A stretch of DNA of 64,000 nt from an uncultured Flavobacteriaceae bacterium (lineage in GTDB: Bacteria; Bacteroidota; Bacteroidia; Flavobacteriales; Flavobacteriaceae), in contig CANKZQ010000005.1 of NCBI GenBank assembly GCA_947488345.1, positions 62,001 through 126,000 of the forward strand, written 5' to 3'. A model generated the notes under the pieces. That model searched no databases, was not told where the DNA came from, and was given only the letters and a program-made list of their open reading frames with translations. This document shows, in pieces, positions 18,497-62,129 of the stretch. Position 1 is the stretch's first letter. Every line of letters starts with the position of its first letter. The position numbers and the translations under genes are program-made.

Positions 18497-18520
18497 CGGA
18501 GTAGATGTATTAAAACAAAA

Positions 18521-18552
18521 AACCAAGCTATACCCTATTCCATAGCTTGGTT
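18521..18552. terminator. Intrinsic terminator between convergent anmK and lipid-body locus
   Basis: aaccaagctat-accctattcc-atagcttggtt perfect 11-bp stem flanked by A-tract. Confidence 0.8.
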
Positions 18553-18582
18553 CATGATTAGTCTATTTAAAAAATATACCGT

Positions 18583-18873
18583 TTAGGCAAACAATTTTGT
18601 AAACCTTTTCTTGCCTTGCATCAATTGTGCTTTAAAAGTATCTAAAGCATCAAAAACGATATCTTGTTGATTAGATGCCAATTTAAAACCACTTGTGATT
18701 GCTTTTGTAGACACTTTTTGCCATTGTTCAGCGATTGTTAATGACTCATTAATAAGTTCTTCTGTTGACTGTAATGCTATGCTATTTACATTTTTCACAT
18801 TATTTTTAGTCGTATTCATAAGGGTAGCAATGTTATTTTTAACCGTAGCTACTTTTGATTTTTTTGCACTCAT
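18583..18873 (-). CDS. Small phasin-like protein (paralog 3)
   Basis: 'SLTIAEQWQKVSTKAITSGFKLASNQQDIVFDALDTFKAQLMQGKKRFTKLF' matches the core of the ORFs at 18895 and 19921. Confidence 0.65.
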   Translation of the reverse strand: MSAKKSKVATVKNNIATLMNTTKNNVKNVNSIALQSTEELINESLTIAEQWQKVSTKAITSGFKLASNQQDIVFDALDTFKAQLMQGKKRFTKLFA

Positions 18874-19770: not shown

Positions 19771-19872
19771 GATATATCGTTTATTATGTTTATTTATTTT
19801 GAACACTGCAAAAATACAATGGCGGAGTTACAAATGAGTTACACCGTTCATTTTGCTCAGTGTAACACAAAA

Positions 19873-19902
19873 AAAACCAAGTATTATAAATACCTGGTTT
19901 TT
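19873..19902 (-). terminator. Intrinsic terminator after phasin-like gene
   Basis: On minus strand aaaaaccaggtatt-tat-aatacttggttttttttt. Confidence 0.75.
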
Positions 19903-19920: not shown

Positions 19921-20190
19921 TTATTTTGTAAATAAGGCCTTAGACCTTTTAAAACCTTTAACAGCGTGTCCTTTGGCCGCTTCTAAAGTATTAAAAATAA
20001 TGTCCTGCTGTGTGTCAGCCAACTTTAATCCGCCTTTTAACGCCTTTTTAGACAAATCTTGCCATTGCGCAGTAAACTTGATAGCTCCAGAAACTACTTC
20101 TTCTGTAGATTTTAAAGCAAAAGCGTTTGCCTTGGTTGCTGTATTTTTAACTGTTTCTACTGTTTTAGTAACTACTTTTTTATTTGCCAT
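19921..20190 (-). CDS. Small phasin-like protein (paralog 1)
   Basis: 'FTAQWQDLSKKALKGGLKLADTQQDIIFNTLEAAKGHAVKGFKRSKALF'; same core as the two neighbours. Confidence 0.65.
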   Translation of the reverse strand: MANKKVVTKTVETVKNTATKANAFALKSTEEVVSGAIKFTAQWQDLSKKALKGGLKLADTQQDIIFNTLEAAKGHAVKGFKRSKALFTK

Positions 20191-20289: not shown

Positions 20290-21093
20290 TTAGCTTATTT
20301 CTTGAATTTCCCTCATCAGTTCTTTGGTTTGCGGCAGTGGGTCAACCCCATATTCTGTATCTAAGACCTGTTCACATTTTTGAAATGTTTTAATCGCTTG
20401 TGGTCTGTTGCCTTTTGCTAAATAACCTTGCATTTGTAAGCGATATGCATCTTCCCAAGTAGGGTCGATGGCCAATGCATTTTGTGTTAGGCGTATTGTT
20501 TCTAGTGGATTTTCTTCCAGTAGAATTTCTGCTAGGCTTATGTAAGCGCTCAAAATAAGAAGCTGGGCTTTTTCACGTTCCTCTGACGACCAATCTTCGT
20601 AAATTCTATTGGGTAAGTAAGCACCTTGATAAACGGCTATAGCTAGCTTATAGGCCTTTTTAGCACAGCTATGATCGGTTCCGAAGGTTTCATTGCCAAT
20701 GACGATGTACTTTTCTAAGATGTCAATATCAATCCATATTTTTTCTAAGTTCAATTGATAACTCACTCCTTGTCTAATCACATAGGTTGGTTCTGTTCTA
20801 GAGGGTCTTTCAGGTTCCAAAACTTTGTGAATTCCATGCAACGCTACTTTAAAATCTCGATCATCACCTTCTTCCCATAAATTGTCCATAATTTTCTCTT
20901 TATGGAGTGCGTTTCGGCGGCGGTTAGAAATAAAGTACTGCAATAATTGAACGGTTTTATCTCTTCCCCATTCTTTGGGGTCAACTTTTTCACCAGTGCG
21001 CCAAATAGTAAATTGACCCAAGGTCTGAATGCGTATAGGCGCATGTTCCTGGAAAGCGATCAATTCTTCTAATTTTTTGATAGGTGTAGACAT
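20290..21093 (-). CDS. SARP/BTAD-like transcriptional activator
   Basis: OmpR-like DNA-binding 'IRIQTLGQFTIWRTGEKVDPKEWGRDKTVQLLQYFISNRRRNALHKEKIMDNLWEEGD' followed by TPR-like BTAD region. Confidence 0.8.
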   Translation of the reverse strand: MSTPIKKLEELIAFQEHAPIRIQTLGQFTIWRTGEKVDPKEWGRDKTVQLLQYFISNRRRNALHKEKIMDNLWEEGDDRDFKVALHGIHKVLEPERPSRTEPTYVIRQGVSYQLNLEKIWIDIDILEKYIVIGNETFGTDHSCAKKAYKLAIAVYQGAYLPNRIYEDWSSEEREKAQLLILSAYISLAEILLEENPLETIRLTQNALAIDPTWEDAYRLQMQGYLAKGNRPQAIKTFQKCEQVLDTEYGVDPLPQTKELMREIQEIS

Positions 21094-21104
21094 GTAAAAA
21101 CGGA

Positions 21105-21617
21105 TTACTTTTTACTGATATTGTCAATTTTGTTAGAGAGCTGTTTGATTTGCTCAGCGAGTTCGTTAATTGATTTTTTAACTTTTTTATAATCGGATCT
21201 CGAGGCATTTCGCCATTCGTCAATTTGTACTTTTTCACTTATTTCTTCTCCAATAGAGCTGATTTGCCCTTGAATTTGATCTTGAAATTGAGAAAGTTGT
21301 TTTTTAGGATCTTTGATGGTTTCCATTAAAACCTTGGGGCCGACTTCTTTCATGGTTTTCCACATGTACAAACTTTTCTGAAGAATACCTTCCTGTTGTT
21401 CTGTTGTCTTATCCTTTGTGGCTTCTTTGGTGAGATTTGCTAATTTCTCCTGCATAAAAATTAGCGCATCATTAAAATCAGTAAAGTTTTGCTCATCACC
21501 TTCTTGTACATGAGATATTTTACCCCGCCACTGTACTTTTGACTCACCGTCTTCTTCGAAAATTTGTTGGTTAAATCGCACCATGAACGAAGCCGTTTGA
21601 TCTTGTTTTTTACTCAT
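21105..21617 (-). CDS. Hypothetical, coiled-coil C-terminus; candidate granule/lipid-body associated protein
   Basis: N-term 'FMVRFNQQIFEEDGESKVQWRGKISHVQEGDEQNFTDFNDALIFMQEKL', C-term heptad-like helices; lies within the lipid operon. Confidence 0.6.
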   Translation of the reverse strand: MSKKQDQTASFMVRFNQQIFEEDGESKVQWRGKISHVQEGDEQNFTDFNDALIFMQEKLANLTKEATKDKTTEQQEGILQKSLYMWKTMKEVGPKVLMETIKDPKKQLSQFQDQIQGQISSIGEEISEKVQIDEWRNASRSDYKKVKKSINELAEQIKQLSNKIDNISKK

Positions 21618-21650
21618 AACAGTTGAGATTTTAGTTGTAACTATATGTTA

Positions 21651-22652
21651 TTATCCTGGCTCTCCTTCTGAACCTACTTCTATTTTTAATAACCCTTTAA
21701 AAGCATCATTGACGGTATTGCCTTCATAAAGTACTTTGTATACTTCGGTAGAAATTGGCATATCAACACCGTAATCTTTAGAAAGTTCCATAACAACTTT
21801 TGCTGTTTTTACGCCTTCCGCTACTTCTGACATTTCTTCAATAATTTGATCTAAACTTTTACCACGACCTATTTGGTATCCTACATGATGATTTCTACTT
21901 TTAGCACTTGAACAAGTAGCAACTAAATCTCCCATGCCTGCAAGTCCTGAGAATGTTCTGCGTTTACCACCCATAGCGACTCCTAAACGCGTCAATTCTG
22001 ACAGACCTCTTGTAATGACTGCTGCTCTTGTATTGTCACCAGCATTGGCACCGTCGCCCATACCAGAAGCGATGGCCATGATATTTTTTAAGGCGCCACC
22101 TAACTCACAACCAATAACATCATGATTGGTGTACACTCGAAATAGACCAGAACTAAATACCGATTGTAATCTTTTGGCGATGGTGTCATCGACCATTGCA
22201 ATCACTGCAGCAGCCGCTTTTCCATAGTGTATTTCTTTTGCTAGATTAGGACCGGTTAGAACGCCAGCGGGATGCCCAGGCATTTCTTCTTCAATAATTT
22301 CGGTCATTCTCATTTTAGTACCCATTTCTAAGCCTTTGGCTAAGCTAATGATAGGAATCCAAGGTCTTATAAACGGTTTTGCACTTTTCAAAACTTCCCT
22401 GAAGTTTTGCGAAGGAATTCCCATCACAATGACATCTGCATTTTGTACAGTTTCTTGAATTGAATTCGAAGCTTTTAAGTTTTTATGCAATTTGGCATCT
22501 GGTAAATACTTTCGATTGGTACCGTGCTCATTGATTTCTTGAACAGTTTCAGCATTTCGAGCCCATAAAACAACTTCGCTGTTTTTAGCTGTTAAGGAAG
22601 CCACCGTTGTACCCCACGAGCCTCCACCGAGTAATCCTACCTTTAATTTCAT
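21651..22652 (-). CDS. gpsA: Glycerol-3-phosphate dehydrogenase [NAD(P)+]
   Basis: GLLGGGSWGTTVA Rossmann motif, 'GCELGGALKNIMAIASGM', 'GLAGMGDLVATC'. Start moved to MKLKVGLLGG (22652). Confidence 0.95.
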   Translation of the reverse strand: MKLKVGLLGGGSWGTTVASLTAKNSEVVLWARNAETVQEINEHGTNRKYLPDAKLHKNLKASNSIQETVQNADVIVMGIPSQNFREVLKSAKPFIRPWIPIISLAKGLEMGTKMRMTEIIEEEMPGHPAGVLTGPNLAKEIHYGKAAAAVIAMVDDTIAKRLQSVFSSGLFRVYTNHDVIGCELGGALKNIMAIASGMGDGANAGDNTRAAVITRGLSELTRLGVAMGGKRRTFSGLAGMGDLVATCSSAKSRNHHVGYQIGRGKSLDQIIEEMSEVAEGVKTAKVVMELSKDYGVDMPISTEVYKVLYEGNTVNDAFKGLLKIEVGSEGEPG

Positions 22653-22753
22653 GTGTTTACATTTATTATTTTTTAAAGGATACATGCTGTTCGCTAAGAA
22701 TCCTTTCTCTGAGTATTAAACTTTTTAGTGTGCTCGATTCACAATGCGATAAA

Positions 22754-25700
22754 TTAATTTTCTAGTTCTTTTAAAAATAGATTCCGAACGTCTTCAACGT
22801 ATGTATTGATTTTCTTTAGTTTCCATTCAGAAGTATCAATTGGGTCTAATACGACGACTTCTATATGCGTTGGTTTAAAAAACTTACTGCCTTTAGGCAT
22901 GGCCATATAGGCATTTTTTATCACGATGGGAACGATAGGAACTCCACCCTGTATCGCCAGATGGAAAGCCCCTTTTTTAAAGGCTCCAAGTTCTTTACTT
23001 CCGCTTCTAGTGCCCTCGGGCGCAATAACAACGGAGATCCCATTTTTTAAGGCATCTACCGCTGGTTTCATAGCTTCTATGGCTTTCTTTTTGTCAGAAC
23101 GATCTACAAAAATAGCTCCCAATGCTTTAAAGATAGGACCGATGGGCGTGAATTCTAATTCTTTTTTAGCAACGCCCGTTATATCTTTGCGTAGCAGTTT
23201 CATTACAATAAAGAAGTCAGCCGAACTTTGATGGTTAAAACAAAAAACGGCGGGCCTGAAATCTTCCAGATTTTGTTTTCCCTTTACGTTAATATCTAAA
23301 CCAGCCAATTTAGTCCCTAGATCACCGATACTTGCAAATGTTGTATTGGCGGCTTCTTGTTTAGACATGGTTAAAACGCCTTTAGCGATACCTCTGAGTG
23401 CTGAAGGGTATATAGAGGCAGCCGCTAGTACGCTTCGAAATCCGTTTACTACCGGTTTTTCTTCATTGTCATCGAATCTTAAAATGGGCCAGCTATTTTC
23501 GAAAGCGAGCTGTGAGAGTCTATTATCCGGATTTGTAGCATGAGGTTTACCCACAATTTCTAAGAGCGGATAATCTTCAATACTATCTGTATAGAAAAAA
23601 CTTTTAGACAAATCAATATCATGCGCCTTGGCAAATTTCTTTCCAGCATTCGCTTTGCCTTCTCCCCAGCACATTTCTTTAATTGTACCGGTGAACTTCC
23701 CTTTTTTTACATCCATTTCGGTGCAAAAAATATCTTTAACCCCAAGCTCATCTGCTATTGGTTTGATTTGATAAATGGTGGCTGCGGAAACAATTACCAC
23801 TTTATGACCTTTTTCTAAATGCGAAGCAATAAGGGTTCTTGATTCGGGGTAAATAGTTGTTGCCAAATGGTCTGCGAACACATCCTCACCGAGATCAAAA
23901 AAGTCTTTTTCCTTAATGCCCTTCACTCCCAAGGCCGATATTTTTGTTAAGAATTCAAAATCTCGATTACCGGCGGCATAAGCGATGGCTGTCGCAAATT
24001 GGGATAGTAATTCCTTTGCTGTCGTTTTTCCACTTAAAATTCTTGATTGTACGAACTTCTTAGCAGAAAAATCATTGATTAGCGTTCTATCCAAATCAAA
24101 AAATGCGGCAATATGCGGACCTTCTTCTTGTTTTAAGATTTTATTAGAGAAACTATTAAAATCTGCGCCAGGAACTACTTCTGTTTCTTCGGTATCTTCG
24201 ATTTCCTTGGTCTTTTCAGCTGTTGTAATTTCAAGTTGTTGTAAAAAGTTTAATCTCTGAGTTAAGTCCTCCAGTAACAGCATCAACTCATCTATTTTAT
24301 CATAATCAATAGCGCCATCAACAGGAGTGAGATTACTATTTTTAGCAAAACGCAAGGCACTTACTAAAAAAGGTTTCGAGACACTATCTAAGCGACTAAT
24401 ACGTGTTTGCCAATGTAATTCTCGCCCCTTAAACAAGCATAAATCTACAAATTCATTATCAGAAAACTCGTCCTCTAGATCCCAACTTTTAAGGGTATGA
24501 CATACTACTTTATTCGCTTCTAGATAAATAATTAATAATGCTTTAGAAACAAAAAGTTCTTGTTTTGCCAATAGTTGTGAAATATCTTCAGCGGGGTTGT
24601 CAATAATAGTTCTCCAATTTTTGTCAAAAACAGATAGTTCTGCTTCAATTTCACTGCTAAATTGTGGTTTGTTTGTATAGAAAAATTCAAATTTGAATAA
24701 GTTTCTTAGGCGCATTATTTCTTCCCAGAAATGGAGAATTCTGTCAGAAGAAGTGTCATCTTTTATCTTCACCAATGCCATCTCTATAAAAGCGCGATGG
24801 TACAGGTGACCTGAGGCCATATTTGCATAATATGTGGCAGATAAATACTCGGTAGGAGCCAAGCTATACTGCACTTTTAGGCCGGCTTTACTTTTTCGAA
24901 TAATACGAGCACTCAGTAATAAATTCAATGCCTTCTGTATAGTAATACTAATACTATTTCCACGATCTATAAGTACATCTTTTTTACGATGTCCAATATA
25001 ATTCATGAGTTTGCTTACGTTGAGCTCTAATTCTTTTTTTGTTAAAGCAAAATTGTTCAATAATAAATTAGAAACCAAAGATACCGTTGTCACCGGTGTA
25101 ATCATATTGGCTTTGTGAATAAGCTCAAAAGCGAAACGCGGGAGGGTATTTTTGTCGGCGTAACTGTCATCTTCTAGGTCGGGTATTATAGCATTGTGAT
25201 GTTCGCTAACATCGACTGGTTCTCCGAATCTAATCGCTGCTCTTCCATGTTCATTCCCTAATTTTCTAATATAATTGACAAAAGTTTCTAAATTTTCACT
25301 CTTTTTCTCTTTGCCCTTGCCTTCTTCAGTCATTTCCTTCACATCTGGAATCAAGTCATAAACAATAGATACAGGTACATATTTGATCGCACGAGTGCTT
25401 TGACGTTCGCCCTCTAAGATATACTTTAATATACCCATTTGAGGATATACAATTTTACCCGTTCTCGAGCGCGTTCCTTCAATATTCCAAGTTAAATGAT
25501 CACCATTGTCGATGAGTGATGCGATGTAATGTCTCAAGGCAGCTTTGTACACTTTATTATCCTTAAAGCTTCTTCTAATGAAGATCAATCCAGAGTTCTT
25601 TCCCAATTGTTTTACTCCTGGCATGGCTAAGTTAATGCCACCAAAAGCATAAGGAATTGGCATTCCGTAATGAGCTAACGTGTTTATTAAAACAACGGTA

Positions 25701-25996
25701 TCTAAATAGGTTTTGTGTGTAAGTATGAAAGCGACAGAATCTTGTCGCATTAGTTTCATTAATTTTTTAATCTCCTTCGGATCAACATCAATTTTATCAC
25801 CATATGCCTTCGAAATCATATATCGAAACCCCTTTCCGGATACCATATTGGCTACGGGATGTTGGTGTGCATATAGTTCCTTGATGCAAAGTGCTCCCTC
25901 TTTTTGAACCTCGACAAGGTCCAATTTTTGAGTCACAGCAATTTCTTGAAGTTTTTCTTGAAATTTGGGATGATTAATGATTTTTTCTATCTGCAT
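22754..25996 (-). CDS. Tripartite PlsB-like acyltransferase - HAD-IB phosphatase-like - PlsC-like acyltransferase fusion
   Basis: 1080 aa: 'ILTHKTYLDTVVL' + 'IEGTRSRTGK' (first HX4D acyltransferase), 'AAFFDLDRTLINDFSAKKF' (HAD DxDxT), 'CFNHQSSADFFIVMKLL' + 'IAPEGTRSGSKEL' (second HX4D acyltransferase). Confidence 0.88.
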   Translation of the reverse strand: MQIEKIINHPKFQEKLQEIAVTQKLDLVEVQKEGALCIKELYAHQHPVANMVSGKGFRYMISKAYGDKIDVDPKEIKKLMKLMRQDSVAFILTHKTYLDTVVLINTLAHYGMPIPYAFGGINLAMPGVKQLGKNSGLIFIRRSFKDNKVYKAALRHYIASLIDNGDHLTWNIEGTRSRTGKIVYPQMGILKYILEGERQSTRAIKYVPVSIVYDLIPDVKEMTEEGKGKEKKSENLETFVNYIRKLGNEHGRAAIRFGEPVDVSEHHNAIIPDLEDDSYADKNTLPRFAFELIHKANMITPVTTVSLVSNLLLNNFALTKKELELNVSKLMNYIGHRKKDVLIDRGNSISITIQKALNLLLSARIIRKSKAGLKVQYSLAPTEYLSATYYANMASGHLYHRAFIEMALVKIKDDTSSDRILHFWEEIMRLRNLFKFEFFYTNKPQFSSEIEAELSVFDKNWRTIIDNPAEDISQLLAKQELFVSKALLIIYLEANKVVCHTLKSWDLEDEFSDNEFVDLCLFKGRELHWQTRISRLDSVSKPFLVSALRFAKNSNLTPVDGAIDYDKIDELMLLLEDLTQRLNFLQQLEITTAEKTKEIEDTEETEVVPGADFNSFSNKILKQEEGPHIAAFFDLDRTLINDFSAKKFVQSRILSGKTTAKELLSQFATAIAYAAGNRDFEFLTKISALGVKGIKEKDFFDLGEDVFADHLATTIYPESRTLIASHLEKGHKVVIVSAATIYQIKPIADELGVKDIFCTEMDVKKGKFTGTIKEMCWGEGKANAGKKFAKAHDIDLSKSFFYTDSIEDYPLLEIVGKPHATNPDNRLSQLAFENSWPILRFDDNEEKPVVNGFRSVLAAASIYPSALRGIAKGVLTMSKQEAANTTFASIGDLGTKLAGLDINVKGKQNLEDFRPAVFCFNHQSSADFFIVMKLLRKDITGVAKKELEFTPIGPIFKALGAIFVDRSDKKKAIEAMKPAVDALKNGISVVIAPEGTRSGSKELGAFKKGAFHLAIQGGVPIVPIVIKNAYMAMPKGSKFFKPTHIEVVVLDPIDTSEWKLKKINTYVEDVRNLFLKELEN

Positions 25997-26009
25997 ACTA
26001 AGTAATTTA

Positions 26010-27188
26010 TTACTTAAAAAAGAGGTTCGTAAATTTAGCTAGTCCCTTATCTTTCCAAAAACTAGGAAAGAACATGTCTTCAATACTGTGTGCGAAACGA
26101 CTTTCGAAAGGCTCTAAATTCAAATTCTCTCCCAAAGAATGTGCGACGGTAAATAGTATAGAAGCATTAGCACCCATGCCAATGTGACTACCATAGACTT
26201 CAATATTTTTGATATCACCTCGTAATGTTTCGGCTTCTTGGCAGTGTTTCCAAGGTAAAAGGCCATCTGTTTTTGTGTAAATACAGGTAATCGGTACTTT
26301 TGGAATATCTTCAAGCTCTTTTAAGAACTTTTCATTTCGTTCTCGTAGCGTTTTACCTCTTAAAAACTCTAGCATTTTTATTAAAGGCGTATTCATGTTT
26401 TTTACGCCCCAAACGGGTGAGCCAATGGTAATTAATTGCGCTACCTTGTCGGGATGCCTATTGGCGATTATCTTAGCGAACATGCCACCTCCACTCCAGC
26501 CAACGAGACTTACTTTTTCTTGATGCTCTTTATAAATTTCATCGAGTCGCTCCACGAGATTGGGTAAATATTTAGAATTCAACATGTTCACTCCTAAATC
26601 CCATTTATAGGTTTTAAACCCTAACGATGTGAGGTATTTTCTCACAAAACGAGTAGAAAAATCATTGCCTAAATAAGGAGGCATAATCAAGACAGGCTTC
26701 CCTTTCCCCTTTTTTCTTTTCGGAATAAAAGGATAGATATAGAAGATGGATGACCACTCTAATAAGCTCCGTGTTTCAAGTAATGCGTTATATGTTGGTG
26801 GGGCGTCAATCTTTTTATTGATGCGCTCAATTTCTTCTTTAAATCGATTCACGATAAAATCAACAATTTGTAATTTATCTTTTTTGACCTTTCTTGTTCG
26901 CATCGTTTGAGAAGTCACTTTTTCTAAAATCAATACCAAGGCAATATAATCCCTATCTGGACCAAAATCTTCGCAAACAACAATACTGTCGGCCAATAGC
27001 GGCTCTAATTCTTGATGCTTGTCATACTCAACTTTGGAGGCGTATTTCTTAATTTTTTTACTGTAAGGATGGTGGCTGAAACTTTCGTCAATAAGTGTTC
27101 TGGCCTCCTTAAGTTCAACTCCGCTTTTCATGGCTGCATGAATCGCTAGTTTTGTGAATGATTTGTATAGGGTTTTATTGTTTTCCAT
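26010..27188 (-). CDS. Alpha/beta hydrolase, PhaC-like overall but with serine nucleophile
   Basis: 'PVLIMPPYLGNDFSTRFVRKYLTSLGFKTYKWDLG' oxyanion region; nucleophile elbow G-W-S-G-G. Confidence 0.75.
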   Translation of the reverse strand: MENNKTLYKSFTKLAIHAAMKSGVELKEARTLIDESFSHHPYSKKIKKYASKVEYDKHQELEPLLADSIVVCEDFGPDRDYIALVLILEKVTSQTMRTRKVKKDKLQIVDFIVNRFKEEIERINKKIDAPPTYNALLETRSLLEWSSIFYIYPFIPKRKKGKGKPVLIMPPYLGNDFSTRFVRKYLTSLGFKTYKWDLGVNMLNSKYLPNLVERLDEIYKEHQEKVSLVGWSGGGMFAKIIANRHPDKVAQLITIGSPVWGVKNMNTPLIKMLEFLRGKTLRERNEKFLKELEDIPKVPITCIYTKTDGLLPWKHCQEAETLRGDIKNIEVYGSHIGMGANASILFTVAHSLGENLNLEPFESRFAHSIEDMFFPSFWKDKGLAKFTNLFFK

Positions 27189-27194
27189 GTTTCT

Positions 27195-28133
27195 TTAATG
27201 GGCTTCTATTTTTTCGTTAAGCCAATTCAATACGTCTTGTTCTACTTCCTCTTTATTTACTTCATTTAACATTTCGTGACGCCCACCTTTATACAATTTA
27301 AAAGTAAGATCATCAATACCTGCTTTTTCATATTGTCGCACCACTCTTTTGATACCTTTTCCCATTTCCCCTACAGGGTCCTTATCTCCAGAAAAAAGAA
27401 ATATAGGTAACTTCTTAGGAGTAGCATTAAAAGTGGTTTGTTTATTTATTTCTTTACTTCCTTTTAGGATATCTAAAAATATACTTAATGAAAAGTCTTC
27501 GATTCTGTAAGGATCTGCATCAAAAAGATCCACTTGATGTTCGTCGCTACTGATCCAATCGACCTTTGTTCTATTCGGTTTGAATTTTTTATTAAACTCA
27601 GAGAAAAAGACAGATTTTAACAAATTGTTACTTTTGGTTCTTCCTCTGAAAGTGCTAATAACTTTCGCACTAAATAACCCAATTTCACCGAGCCCTTTTA
27701 AAAAACCACCAGTACCTGATAAAATCAAGGCCTGTAGATCATCTCCATACTTAATAACGTATTTTCTGCTTAAAAGTGCACCCATACTATGTCCGAAGAG
27801 GATAATTTTCTTTTGGGGATGCTCTTTTTTGATGAGTAAGGTTAATTGTCGCATATCTTGGATAGCATCATCAAAATAATTTTCGCCATCATAAAACCCC
27901 ATTAGAGCTTTCGATTTTGCTGATCGTCCATGAACTCTATGATCGTTGGCATAAATGGTATAACCTTGCTGCTGTAATAAGGTAGCAATCGGTTGATATC
28001 TTCCAGCGTGCTCGCCAACGCCATGAGAAATTTGCACAATACCTTTCAAAGGAACATGAGGGTCATGTGTCCATTTATAATAAAAAATGGCATCGCCATT
28101 ACTGGCCGTAAAGGTATTGGTTGAATACTTCAT
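27195..28133 (-). CDS. Alpha/beta hydrolase, monoacylglycerol lipase-like
   Basis: 'VQISHGVGEHAGRYQPIATLLQQQGYTIYANDHRVHGRS', 'LFGHSMGALLSRKY', 'GGRHEMLNE'. Confidence 0.88.
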   Translation of the reverse strand: MKYSTNTFTASNGDAIFYYKWTHDPHVPLKGIVQISHGVGEHAGRYQPIATLLQQQGYTIYANDHRVHGRSAKSKALMGFYDGENYFDDAIQDMRQLTLLIKKEHPQKKIILFGHSMGALLSRKYVIKYGDDLQALILSGTGGFLKGLGEIGLFSAKVISTFRGRTKSNNLLKSVFFSEFNKKFKPNRTKVDWISSDEHQVDLFDADPYRIEDFSLSIFLDILKGSKEINKQTTFNATPKKLPIFLFSGDKDPVGEMGKGIKRVVRQYEKAGIDDLTFKLYKGGRHEMLNEVNKEEVEQDVLNWLNEKIEAH

Positions 28134-28135
28134 TC

Positions 28136-29956
28136 TTATCTTGCTAAAAATTGCGCTATAAAATCCATGAATTTTAATTCGTAAGCCTTAGCGCCCTCAA
28201 ATTTTAGACGCTCTTGAATTTTCAACTCTTTCAATAATAGTTTTTTATCATATAGTTGCTTCAAATAAACATCTTCTATATCAATTGTCGCATGCGATTT
28301 TGATGTTTTTCGCTTTCTTATAACGCCTTCTTTTTTTGTTAAGTCAATCAACCAACTCGCTTGTTTTTTATCGAGTTTGACGTTGATTTGATAAATGCCT
28401 TTATATTTTTTGTGCATTGTCGGATTCTTTTTAAGGTACCTTTTAAGGGCACTGAAAAAAGAATCACTCTCAAATTTTAACGCTGTAGATGGTGTTTTTT
28501 TTGTAGCTTTTTTCTTGATTAACTTCTCTAATTCATTGGCAGCATCTCTAATGTATCTAGAAAATTTGTCTGCGTCAGGCATGGTGTTGGCATCCGACGT
28601 TGTTGTAATTGTAACTTGCCCGTTATAGCTAAATGCGGCGATGATTAAACCAAAATTATCCAATACTGGCGTAAGTCCGAAGACTGAAACAATTTTATGT
28701 CCTTTTAAATACAGGAGACCTCTAGGGCCAGGTACATTGGTAATGGTCACATTAAACGGGGGTCTGTGTAATTCTTTAATATTGTATTTACTGTAAAGAC
28801 CTGCGGCCAAGTTTGCCAAACCGAAAGGAACAGAATCAGCCATTTTCGCCAAGGTTTTGGCGCCCATTGCTTTATGTCTTGTTTTTCCTTGAATTGTTTG
28901 TTCTTGGATGTATTCCAGACGTGCAATTGGGTCTTCGATATGCGTGGCAATGCGCACGAGCATATTCGAAATTTGATTATTCAATTCATCTTTACTACTT
29001 TCTGTTCGAATAGAAATAGGTACGTTAGCTACTAAGGGTTGAGAGGGTAGTTTTTCCCGCTCTTGCAAATATCTTCGAATCGCACCGGCACAAATTGCCA
29101 GTATAATATCATTAATGCTTACACCCATTATTTTTCTGAGAGCATTAATACGGTCGAAAGATAATATGGCTGTTCCCCATGTTCTTTTTGGAGATACCGA
29201 ACCGTTAAAAATAGTTTTGGGTACCGGAAAAGAAGGTTTGTTAAAGTCTTTTTTTCCGTTTAAAGTACTGTTCGCTCTTCCTTTTAGCATCGTGAGTACA
29301 GTCTCCCCTATGGTTACCGGAATTTTTAAGGGATTTTTTAAAAATTTATAGGAACTTTTGAGTAGTAGACTCAGTTCATCTGGTAGTGGGTCTGGCTCGT
29401 AGGGTTTGGGTGGTTTTATTTTTTCGTCATTATCAAATAAAACACCCATGATGCCAACACCTGAGCTGCCGTCGATCATTACATGATGCACCTTGGTAAC
29501 GATAGCTACTGATCCTTTTGGTAGCTGTGAAATCTCATCTAAACCCTCTATAAAACTAATAGACCATAAGGGTCTACGTAAATCTAATGAACCACTAAAA
29601 ATAGAGGAGGTTTGCTCTCTCAAGGTTTTCCAGTTGGCTGGATCTGGTAATTTTATTCTATTAATATGAAGGTCTAAATCGAAGTTCGGATCATCTACCC
29701 AATAGGGATAATCGAGATCGAAAGGAACGTTCATTAATCGTTGTCGAAACTTGGGAATTAAATGAAGTTTAGAAGCAATAATATCTTTAAAATCTTGATA
29801 CTTTAATGAATCTTCAACAATAATCAGGGAGCCCACATGCATCGGACTCGATGGAGATTCAGCATATAAAAATGTTGCATCAAAACCTGAGATTTGTTTT
29901 GCTGAAGTTTCAAGTGCATCTTGAACAATATCTTTAATAACCGTTTTTTTCGCCAT
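28136..29956 (-). CDS. WS/DGAT wax ester synthase / diacylglycerol acyltransferase with SCP2-like C-terminal extension
   Basis: 'VTKVHHVMIDGSSGVGIM' HHxxxDG; 'FNVTITNVPGPRGLLYLKGHKI'; final ~90 aa 'YQINVKLDKKQASWLIDLTKKEGVI..ATIDIEDVYLKQLYDKKLLLKELKIQERLKFEGAKAYELKFMDFI' resembles an SCP2 fold. Confidence 0.9.
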   Translation of the reverse strand: MAKKTVIKDIVQDALETSAKQISGFDATFLYAESPSSPMHVGSLIIVEDSLKYQDFKDIIASKLHLIPKFRQRLMNVPFDLDYPYWVDDPNFDLDLHINRIKLPDPANWKTLREQTSSIFSGSLDLRRPLWSISFIEGLDEISQLPKGSVAIVTKVHHVMIDGSSGVGIMGVLFDNDEKIKPPKPYEPDPLPDELSLLLKSSYKFLKNPLKIPVTIGETVLTMLKGRANSTLNGKKDFNKPSFPVPKTIFNGSVSPKRTWGTAILSFDRINALRKIMGVSINDIILAICAGAIRRYLQEREKLPSQPLVANVPISIRTESSKDELNNQISNMLVRIATHIEDPIARLEYIQEQTIQGKTRHKAMGAKTLAKMADSVPFGLANLAAGLYSKYNIKELHRPPFNVTITNVPGPRGLLYLKGHKIVSVFGLTPVLDNFGLIIAAFSYNGQVTITTTSDANTMPDADKFSRYIRDAANELEKLIKKKATKKTPSTALKFESDSFFSALKRYLKKNPTMHKKYKGIYQINVKLDKKQASWLIDLTKKEGVIRKRKTSKSHATIDIEDVYLKQLYDKKLLLKELKIQERLKFEGAKAYELKFMDFIAQFLAR

Positions 29957-61460: not shown

Positions 61461-62129
61461 ATGAAACAAATCTTTTTTACATTCTTATTTCTATTTTCAT
61501 TCACTTCTTTTTCTCAAATTAAAGGTGCTGACAAAATTCCTTCAGGAGGAATCTTTTTACCAAAAAATCAGCCATCTGCTACTGTCGTTGAGGGTAATGT
61601 TAGGAGAATATGGAAAATAACTAATGGATTGGCGAAGCCAGGAGAACAAGTGCACAGAAACTTATGGATTATAACAAGTAGAGGAAATGTTACCCTGCCT
61701 AATAAAAGTAATTTATGGCTTTATCCCGAAGGTAGTGCGTTATTAGAGACTGCTAGAATCCATGTGCAACATCCTGCAACGGAAACTAAACGAACAAAAG
61801 TTCTATCTTATGATTTTTATGAAAGAGGGAATAACATTATTTATAATGGGCAATGGGCTATTAAAGGAAATAAGGGTCCAGCGTTAATAGCAGATTTGGT
61901 AAAGCCGAGGAATTTTAGAATCATAATAAAGAAGAGGTTTCCAACTGGACGCGATAAGAATTTTAGTTTTATTCTTTATGTTGATGGACAGCCAAGTTTA
62001 GTAAAGAAACTCAATAATAGTTCATCAGTTGATGTTTATGGTAAACAAGTTGCTATTGCATTAAGTAGTTACCCTCCATCGCCGACATTGCAAGAGGTCA
62101 AAGGGGAATATTATGTCTGGGATAATTGA
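61461..62129 (+). CDS. Hypothetical secreted protein
   Basis: Start moved to MKQIFFTFLFLFSFTSFSQ (61461), a clear signal peptide. Confidence 0.65.
   Translation: MKQIFFTFLFLFSFTSFSQIKGADKIPSGGIFLPKNQPSATVVEGNVRRIWKITNGLAKPGEQVHRNLWIITSRGNVTLPNKSNLWLYPEGSALLETARIHVQHPATETKRTKVLSYDFYERGNNIIYNGQWAIKGNKGPALIADLVKPRNFRIIIKKRFPTGRDKNFSFILYVDGQPSLVKKLNNSSSVDVYGKQVAIALSSYPPSPTLQEVKGEYYVWDN

Follow-up and report, generated by a model that had tools for sequence, protein, structure and literature searches.

Can a single locus in a flavobacterium carry a complete route from dihydroxyacetone phosphate (DHAP) to stored neutral lipid? The question was raised by a gene cluster on contig CANKZQ010000005.1 of an uncultured Flavobacteriaceae bacterium (assembly GCA_947488345.1), of which positions 62,001 to 126,000 were analysed (64,000 nt, referred to here as the window and used for all coordinates without a locus prefix). 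An earlier note, made from the letters alone, had proposed that seven co-directional, tightly spaced genes at 20290-29956 form an operon for triacylglycerol (TAG) or wax ester. All seven genes were found at these positions on the minus strand, with gaps of 2, 6, 13, 101, 33 and 11 nt between them, and Pfam and NCBIfam profiles named the WS/DGAT acyltransferase, the two alpha/beta hydrolases (abH1 and abH2), the PlsB-HAD-PlsC fusion, GpsA and the BTAD-type regulator (SARP) (Table 1). The proposed boundary holds for these genes, but the cassette is larger. It runs beyond 20290 down to 18583 with three additional minus-strand genes, so that about ten neighbouring genes make up a compact unit. The products of the three are small, lysine-rich and phasin- or apolipoprotein-like, and one has a histone-H1-like tail and a helix-hairpin-helix (HHH) domain. 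Judged from its gene content, the locus is probably a neutral-lipid storage cassette of two modules, module B (WS/DGAT-abH1-abH2-fusion-GpsA) and module A (CC170-SARP-phasin-HC2-phasin, with TetR-ABC1 in many relatives).

The earlier note had drawn a self-contained route from DHAP through glycerol 3-phosphate (G3P), phosphatidic acid (PA) and diacylglycerol (DAG) to neutral lipid, with linked hydrolases. Domains and motifs agree with this route at each step, and the catalytic motifs are intact in all cassette enzymes checked. WS/DGAT matches WS_DGAT_cat (PF03007) with 183.8 bits (cut-off 23.6) and TIGR02946 with 418 bits (cut-off 310), and the active-site motif HHVMIDG (HHxxxDG) is found at residue 157. 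It also contains WS_DGAT_C (PF06974) and a C-terminal SCP2 lipid-binding domain (PF02036), the latter missing from the earlier note, and its relatives in the PDB are 7nxg and 6chj. abH1, only 2 nt from the WS/DGAT gene, is similar to monoacylglycerol lipases and lysophospholipases and has the motifs GHSMG, GDKD and RHE. abH2 shows weak similarity to Pfam and NCBIfam families and carries the serine lipase box GWSGG; it is a candidate TAG/DAG lipase or acyl hydrolase.

The fusion combines GPAT_C (PF19277, 200.8 bits), PF12710 (114.6 bits) and PF01553 (155.3 bits) in one open reading frame (ORF) of 1080 aa. Its glycerol-3-phosphate acyltransferase (GPAT) part contains all four GPAT motifs (HKTYLD, FIRRS, EGTRSR and PVSIVY) and scores below the equivalog cut-offs of PRK03355 (449 against 721 bits) and of the E. 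coli-type PlsB TIGR03703 (168 against 618.5 bits). The HAD-IB part exceeds the cut-off of TIGR01490 (159 against 98.3 bits) with the DxDxT motif DLDRT, and the PlsC (AGPAT) part exceeds that of TIGR00530 (127 against 103 bits) with NHQSSAD (NHxxxxD) and PEGTRS. The HAD-IB domain is the proposed PA phosphatase. In nearly all complete loci of relatives the fusion is a single ORF of 1,075-1,134 aa. PF19277 was found in one of 398 sampled Bacteroidota, the source genome alone, whereas some WS/DGAT was found in 22 of them; thus other WS/DGATs of the phylum occur without the cassette.

GpsA matches NF009098 with 497 bits (cut-off 436). Its start is most likely at 22652 rather than 22685, which gives 333 aa, the length of nearly all homologues. 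A second, housekeeping GpsA with 31% identity to it is encoded elsewhere in the genome, and this distant type is the only one in another member of the genus (the genus-mate). The cassette GpsA is a dedicated second copy, and the second genomic copy rules it out as the sole housekeeping enzyme. In one relative, a 1058-aa ORF directly upstream of WS/DGAT (L016:13535-16711, minus strand) is a fusion of glycerol kinase (GlpK) with an FAD-dependent G3P dehydrogenase (GlpD), which fits recycling of glycerol.

Are these genes found together elsewhere? Among 151 Flavobacteriaceae genomes, about one per genus, WS/DGAT, the full-length fusion and CC170 occur in an identical set of five, with the fusion split across contigs in one. 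An independent distribution without a conserved neighbourhood was one of the two outcomes that the earlier note had named as evidence against its idea, and the shared set of genomes is the opposite of that. WS/DGAT, fusion and CC170 are all missing from the genus-mate, and since most of the family also lacks the cassette, it is accessory. An empty site could not be delimited in the genus-mate, where the flanking genes are not syntenic.

We then compared loci from named genomes with the fusion, taking the best 80 of 373 relatives. These 80 belong to Flavobacteriaceae, Saprospiraceae, Microscillaceae and related Bacteroidota, and include one metagenome-assembled genome (MAG) labelled Anaerolineales that is possibly mis-binned. 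Cultured carriers among them are Polaribacter glomeratus (L024), Ulvibacter antarcticus (L037) and Dokdonia sinensis (L051). The synteny search suggested in the earlier note revealed a neighbourhood conserved in Bacteroidota, with module halves swapped or inverted. In the 48 fully flanked loci, the fusion is linked to WS/DGAT in 45, abH2 in 43, GpsA in 37 and abH1 in 34; CC170, SARP, phasin-like and HC2-like genes are linked in 41 each, and TetR and ABC1 in 26 each. Module B precedes module A in about 22 loci, as in the window, and follows it in about 22. The joints change with the order: GpsA adjoins CC170 in 22 loci and ABC1 adjoins WS/DGAT in 22. The Saprospiraceae loci mostly have WS/DGAT and module A on the strand opposite to the fusion. 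Linkage that survives such rearrangement speaks for functional association rather than mere descent. The identity matrices of the cassette gene families correlate with rho of 0.67-0.93, although vertical inheritance alone could also yield high values.

Several MAGs labelled Saprospiraceae (L058, L060, L064, L066 and L071) have a Flavobacteriaceae-like fusion with 59-65% identity, whereas most other Saprospiraceae have a type with 49-53% identity and a different layout; either transfer or mis-binning would account for the former. In one relative, a tyrosine recombinase/integrase-like protein, recognised by eye, is encoded about 3.5 kb past the cassette (L017:18197-19267, plus strand) and is a possible sign of mobility. 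The pair of TetR_C_23 and ABC1-kinase genes, linked in about half of the fully flanked loci, is unlinked in the source genome, where it is located on contig C6 (L102:4313-6286). The ABC1 profile had no match in the genus-mate. On the 3' side of the pair (L102:2257-4313, minus strand) are genes for a flavin-reductase-like protein and an NmrA/SDR-DUF2867 fusion, and a relative (G086, locus L103) has the same order.

Module A contains the putative regulators and coat proteins. SARP has a BTAD domain (PF03704) with 58.3 bits (cut-off 22.1); a candidate N-terminal OmpR-type winged helix reaches 16.9 bits against Trans_reg_C, below the cut-off of 26.2. In each of the 53 loci with both genes, SARP adjoins CC170. 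CC170, which is specific to the cassette, had been labelled a coiled-coil hypothetical protein, which describes its C-terminal part but not its N-terminus. An AlphaFold2 model of low overall confidence (pLDDT about 80 for the N-domain and about 50 for the C-terminal helices) predicts a conserved small beta-beta-beta-alpha domain followed by long amphipathic helices. The amphipathicity of the helices is significant (p = 0.002-0.01), and some homologues have a K/A-rich tail. Compared with the PDB, the best match of the model was no better than E 0.6.

Phasin-like protein 1 is amphipathic (p = 0.004, 33-residue window). Homologues of both phasin-like proteins (family A4) gave weak Phasin_2 E-values in 2 of 32 cases and also weak Phasin hits, and the family profile matched only designed bundles in the PDB, with E of at least 0.1. 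The HC2-like protein consists of a phasin/apolipoprotein-like helical N-terminal part, a K/A-rich histone-H1-like tail and a C-terminal HHH region, for which the model has pLDDT mostly 86-95. It scores 39.9 bits against HC2 (cut-off 40) and E 6e-4 against HHH_5. Its 35 homologues match HHH_5 in 22, Apolipoprotein in 15 and, with weak E-values, PF05597 Phasin in 5 cases. Three proteins, small or of unknown family, were scanned with PADLOC and gave no match.

These features suggest how the cassette may work. GpsA would reduce DHAP to G3P. The fusion would acylate G3P twice with acyl-CoA, giving lyso-PA and then PA, and would dephosphorylate PA to DAG, all on one polypeptide, from which the intermediates are possibly not released. 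WS/DGAT, aided by its SCP2 domain, would join DAG and acyl-CoA to TAG in the last step, and abH1 and abH2 would free the fatty acids again. The small phasin-like proteins may coat the droplets, and the HC2-like protein may tie them to the nucleoid by its histone-like tail and HHH domain. Module A, with CC170 and SARP as presumed regulators and with a TetR-like protein and an ABC1 kinase in many relatives, would control expression. A wider reading is conceivable but tentative: a self-contained organelle system for lipid droplets would be widespread among marine Bacteroidota and be inherited or transferred as one unit, with channelling of G3P to DAG in one polypeptide, its own G3P supply, a chromosome-tethering coat, a CC170-SARP sensor of droplet status and an ABC1 regulator.

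Table 1. Genes and hairpins of the cassette, in 5' to 3' order of the minus strand (window coordinates).
Feature	Position	Strand	Profile or family
WS/DGAT acyltransferase, 606 aa	28136..29956	-	PF03007, PF06974, PF02036, TIGR02946
abH1, Hydrolase_4 alpha/beta hydrolase	27195..28133	-	PF12146 168 bits
abH2, alpha/beta hydrolase, subfamily unclear	26010..27188	-	weak PGAP1/Abhydrolase matches
PlsB-HAD-PlsC fusion, 1080 aa	22754..25996	-	PF19277, PF12710, PF01553
GpsA, NAD(P)H glycerol-3-phosphate dehydrogenase, 333 aa	21651..22652	-	NF009098
CC170, 170 aa, no Pfam/NCBIfam match	21105..21617	-	family A3
SARP/BTAD-type transcriptional regulator	20290..21093	-	PF03704
Phasin-like small protein 1, 89 aa, net charge +10	19921..20190	-	family A4
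Terminator-like hairpin after phasin-like protein 1 gene, 14 pairs, T-run	19872..19902	-	
HC2-like protein, 291 aa	18895..19770	-	HC2, HHH_5 matches
Phasin-like small protein 2, 96 aa, last cassette gene	18583..18873	-	family A4
Terminator-like hairpin at cassette end, 13 pairs, T-run	18520..18553	-	

A polysaccharide-utilisation region (30237-51771, plus strand) begins on the opposite strand immediately upstream of the cassette. It encodes a Y_Y_Y-domain regulator, a GH16 protein of the beta-glucanase type, a CBM4_9/PKD protein, a GH30 protein and two MFS_2 sugar transporters. That a locus for feeding on beta-glucan adjoins a storage locus may be coincidence.

Other explanations were considered as well. 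In wax-ester storage, WS/DGAT would esterify fatty alcohols and the glycerolipid genes would serve membranes or a side route. Bifunctional WS/DGAT enzymes are frequent, but the linked GpsA and GPAT-HAD-AGPAT yield DAG and not alcohol. The best genomic match to PF07993, a profile unspecific enough to match in all 14 control genomes, is a 333-aa SDR protein with similar scores in relatives and not a convincing fatty-acyl reductase. For lack of a convincing reductase among the ordinary short SDR-like matches of this profile, wax ester was set aside as the main product and TAG is favoured of the two products left open in the earlier note; storage of wax ester is unlikely. The cassette might instead remodel membranes, with the fusion feeding PA and DAG to phospholipids and WS/DGAT buffering excess acyl-CoA. 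PF02660 (PlsY) had no match in the source genome and three relatives (G000, G120, G086 and G077), although 8 of 14 control genomes match, and PlsY was dropped as a housekeeping comparator; the usual G3P acyltransferase of these four genomes is thus unaccounted for. The related operon of Rhodococcus jostii RHA1 is also expressed during growth (PMC4850399). Nearly all relatives, the genus-mate included, lack the fusion, which therefore is not a general phospholipid route, and the linked WS/DGAT and coat-like proteins indicate storage. We consider a membrane function improbable.

Phasin-like proteins, and the weak similarity of abH2 to polyhydroxyalkanoate (PHA) synthases and depolymerases, could point to a locus for PHA granules, with depolymerase-like hydrolases besides the phasins. 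PhaC (PF07167) is absent from the genome, the lipase box of abH2 contains serine, and the cassette has no PHA precursor genes; with no PhaC this explanation was rejected, and we give it very little credence. Short intergenic gaps by themselves are frequent in bacteria, and ordinary lipid genes could be adjacent by accident. Two random sets of five among 151 genomes would be identical about once in 6e8 when phylogeny is ignored, and the linkage persists despite rearrangement. Chance adjacency is refuted at the present sampling and its probability is close to nil.

Several points weigh against the storage-cassette reading. The cassette is missing from the genus-mate and from most of the family. 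The two terminator-like hairpins in Table 1, which are only suggestive as terminators (10 such hairpins were found in the region against 8.5 expected, and the set is not significant), suggest that the small genes may form separate transcripts. The flavobacterial promoter motif TTG-N17-22-TAnnTTTG occurs 11 times in the window against 13 expected, and is absent from the intergenic region 5' of the cassette. No phasin-like protein of the window exceeds the curated cut-offs of PF05597 or PF09361, and a K-rich composition is able to inflate HC2 and phasin matches. Phosphatase activity of HAD-PlsC proteins has been proposed but not proven in Actinobacteria (PMC4850399, PMC10351704).

How much of the storage cassette is new? 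Its core is partly known, and our data extend the work of Galvan et al. 2023 (PMC10351704) and are not a first sighting. That paper, which terms neutral lipid in Bacteroidota unexplored, describes for marine Bacteroidota a WS/DGAT-SCP2 protein of about 613 aa whose gene adjoins one for an acyltransferase/hydrolase, in genera shared with the cassette (Polaribacter, Ulvibacter, Dokdonia, Winogradskyella, Lacinutrix and Tenacibaculum); its main text has no description of GpsA, the PlsB part, the hydrolases, the regulator or the phasin-like and histone-like genes. In the Actinobacteria, WS/DGAT likewise adjoins PlsB and HAD-PlsC in R. jostii RHA1 atf9-plsB-plsC and M. tuberculosis Rv2482c-Rv2485c (PMC4850399, PMC10699116), and the mycobacterial cluster includes an adjacent carboxylesterase, LipQ (PMC10699116). 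The Actinobacterial PlsB and HAD-PlsC are separate genes with about 31-32% identity to the fused window protein, and GpsA, SARP and a coat module are not reported there. A plasmid of M. paragordonae has WS/DGAT, an alpha/beta hydrolase, HAD-PlsC and PlsB adjacent and unfused, with the order of PlsB and HAD-PlsC reversed relative to the window; GpsA, SARP and the coat module were not seen in that stretch either. Expression of atf9-plsB-plsC, the nearest Actinobacterial operon, is highest under nitrogen excess (PMC4850399).

The putative coat and tether proteins have parallels in other systems. MLDS of R. jostii RHA1 is located on droplets and binds DNA through a histone-like tail rich in lysine and alanine, and the gene for its regulator MLDSR is adjacent (PMC5504291). 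In the HC2-like protein, unlike MLDS, the tail precedes an HHH domain, AKK occurs seven times and the exact PAKKA motif is absent; the genes are located with biosynthetic genes, and the regulator is of the BTAD/SARP type instead of XRE. MLDS/MLDSR may be a functional parallel, with no homology demonstrated. The PHA phasins PhaF and PhaH (PF05597, PF09361) are small, lysine-rich and helical like the cassette proteins; homologues of the latter match these families in few cases and weakly, and the source genome has no PHA synthase. Chloroplast plastoglobules are droplets with ABC1 kinases, coat proteins and a triacylglycerol/phytyl-ester synthase (PMC9725166); this is an analogy only, as their coat and synthase families differ and ABC1 is unlinked in the source genome. 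The proposed one-chain Kennedy pathway, a dedicated GpsA and a linked module of putative droplet coat, DNA tether and regulator appear to be undescribed in the openly readable main texts searched.

Cassettes related to this one are carried by Polaribacter, Winogradskyella, Tenacibaculum, Ulvibacter, Dokdonia and Saprospiraceae, which process algal carbon in the sea. The single-chain PlsB-HAD-PlsC bears on whether the missing PA phosphatase of bacteria is to be sought among HAD-PlsC proteins. The HC2-like protein bears on whether tethering of droplets to DNA evolved outside Actinobacteria. If our reading is true, one diagnostic gene, the fusion, would reveal from a genome the capacity of these bacteria to store oil.

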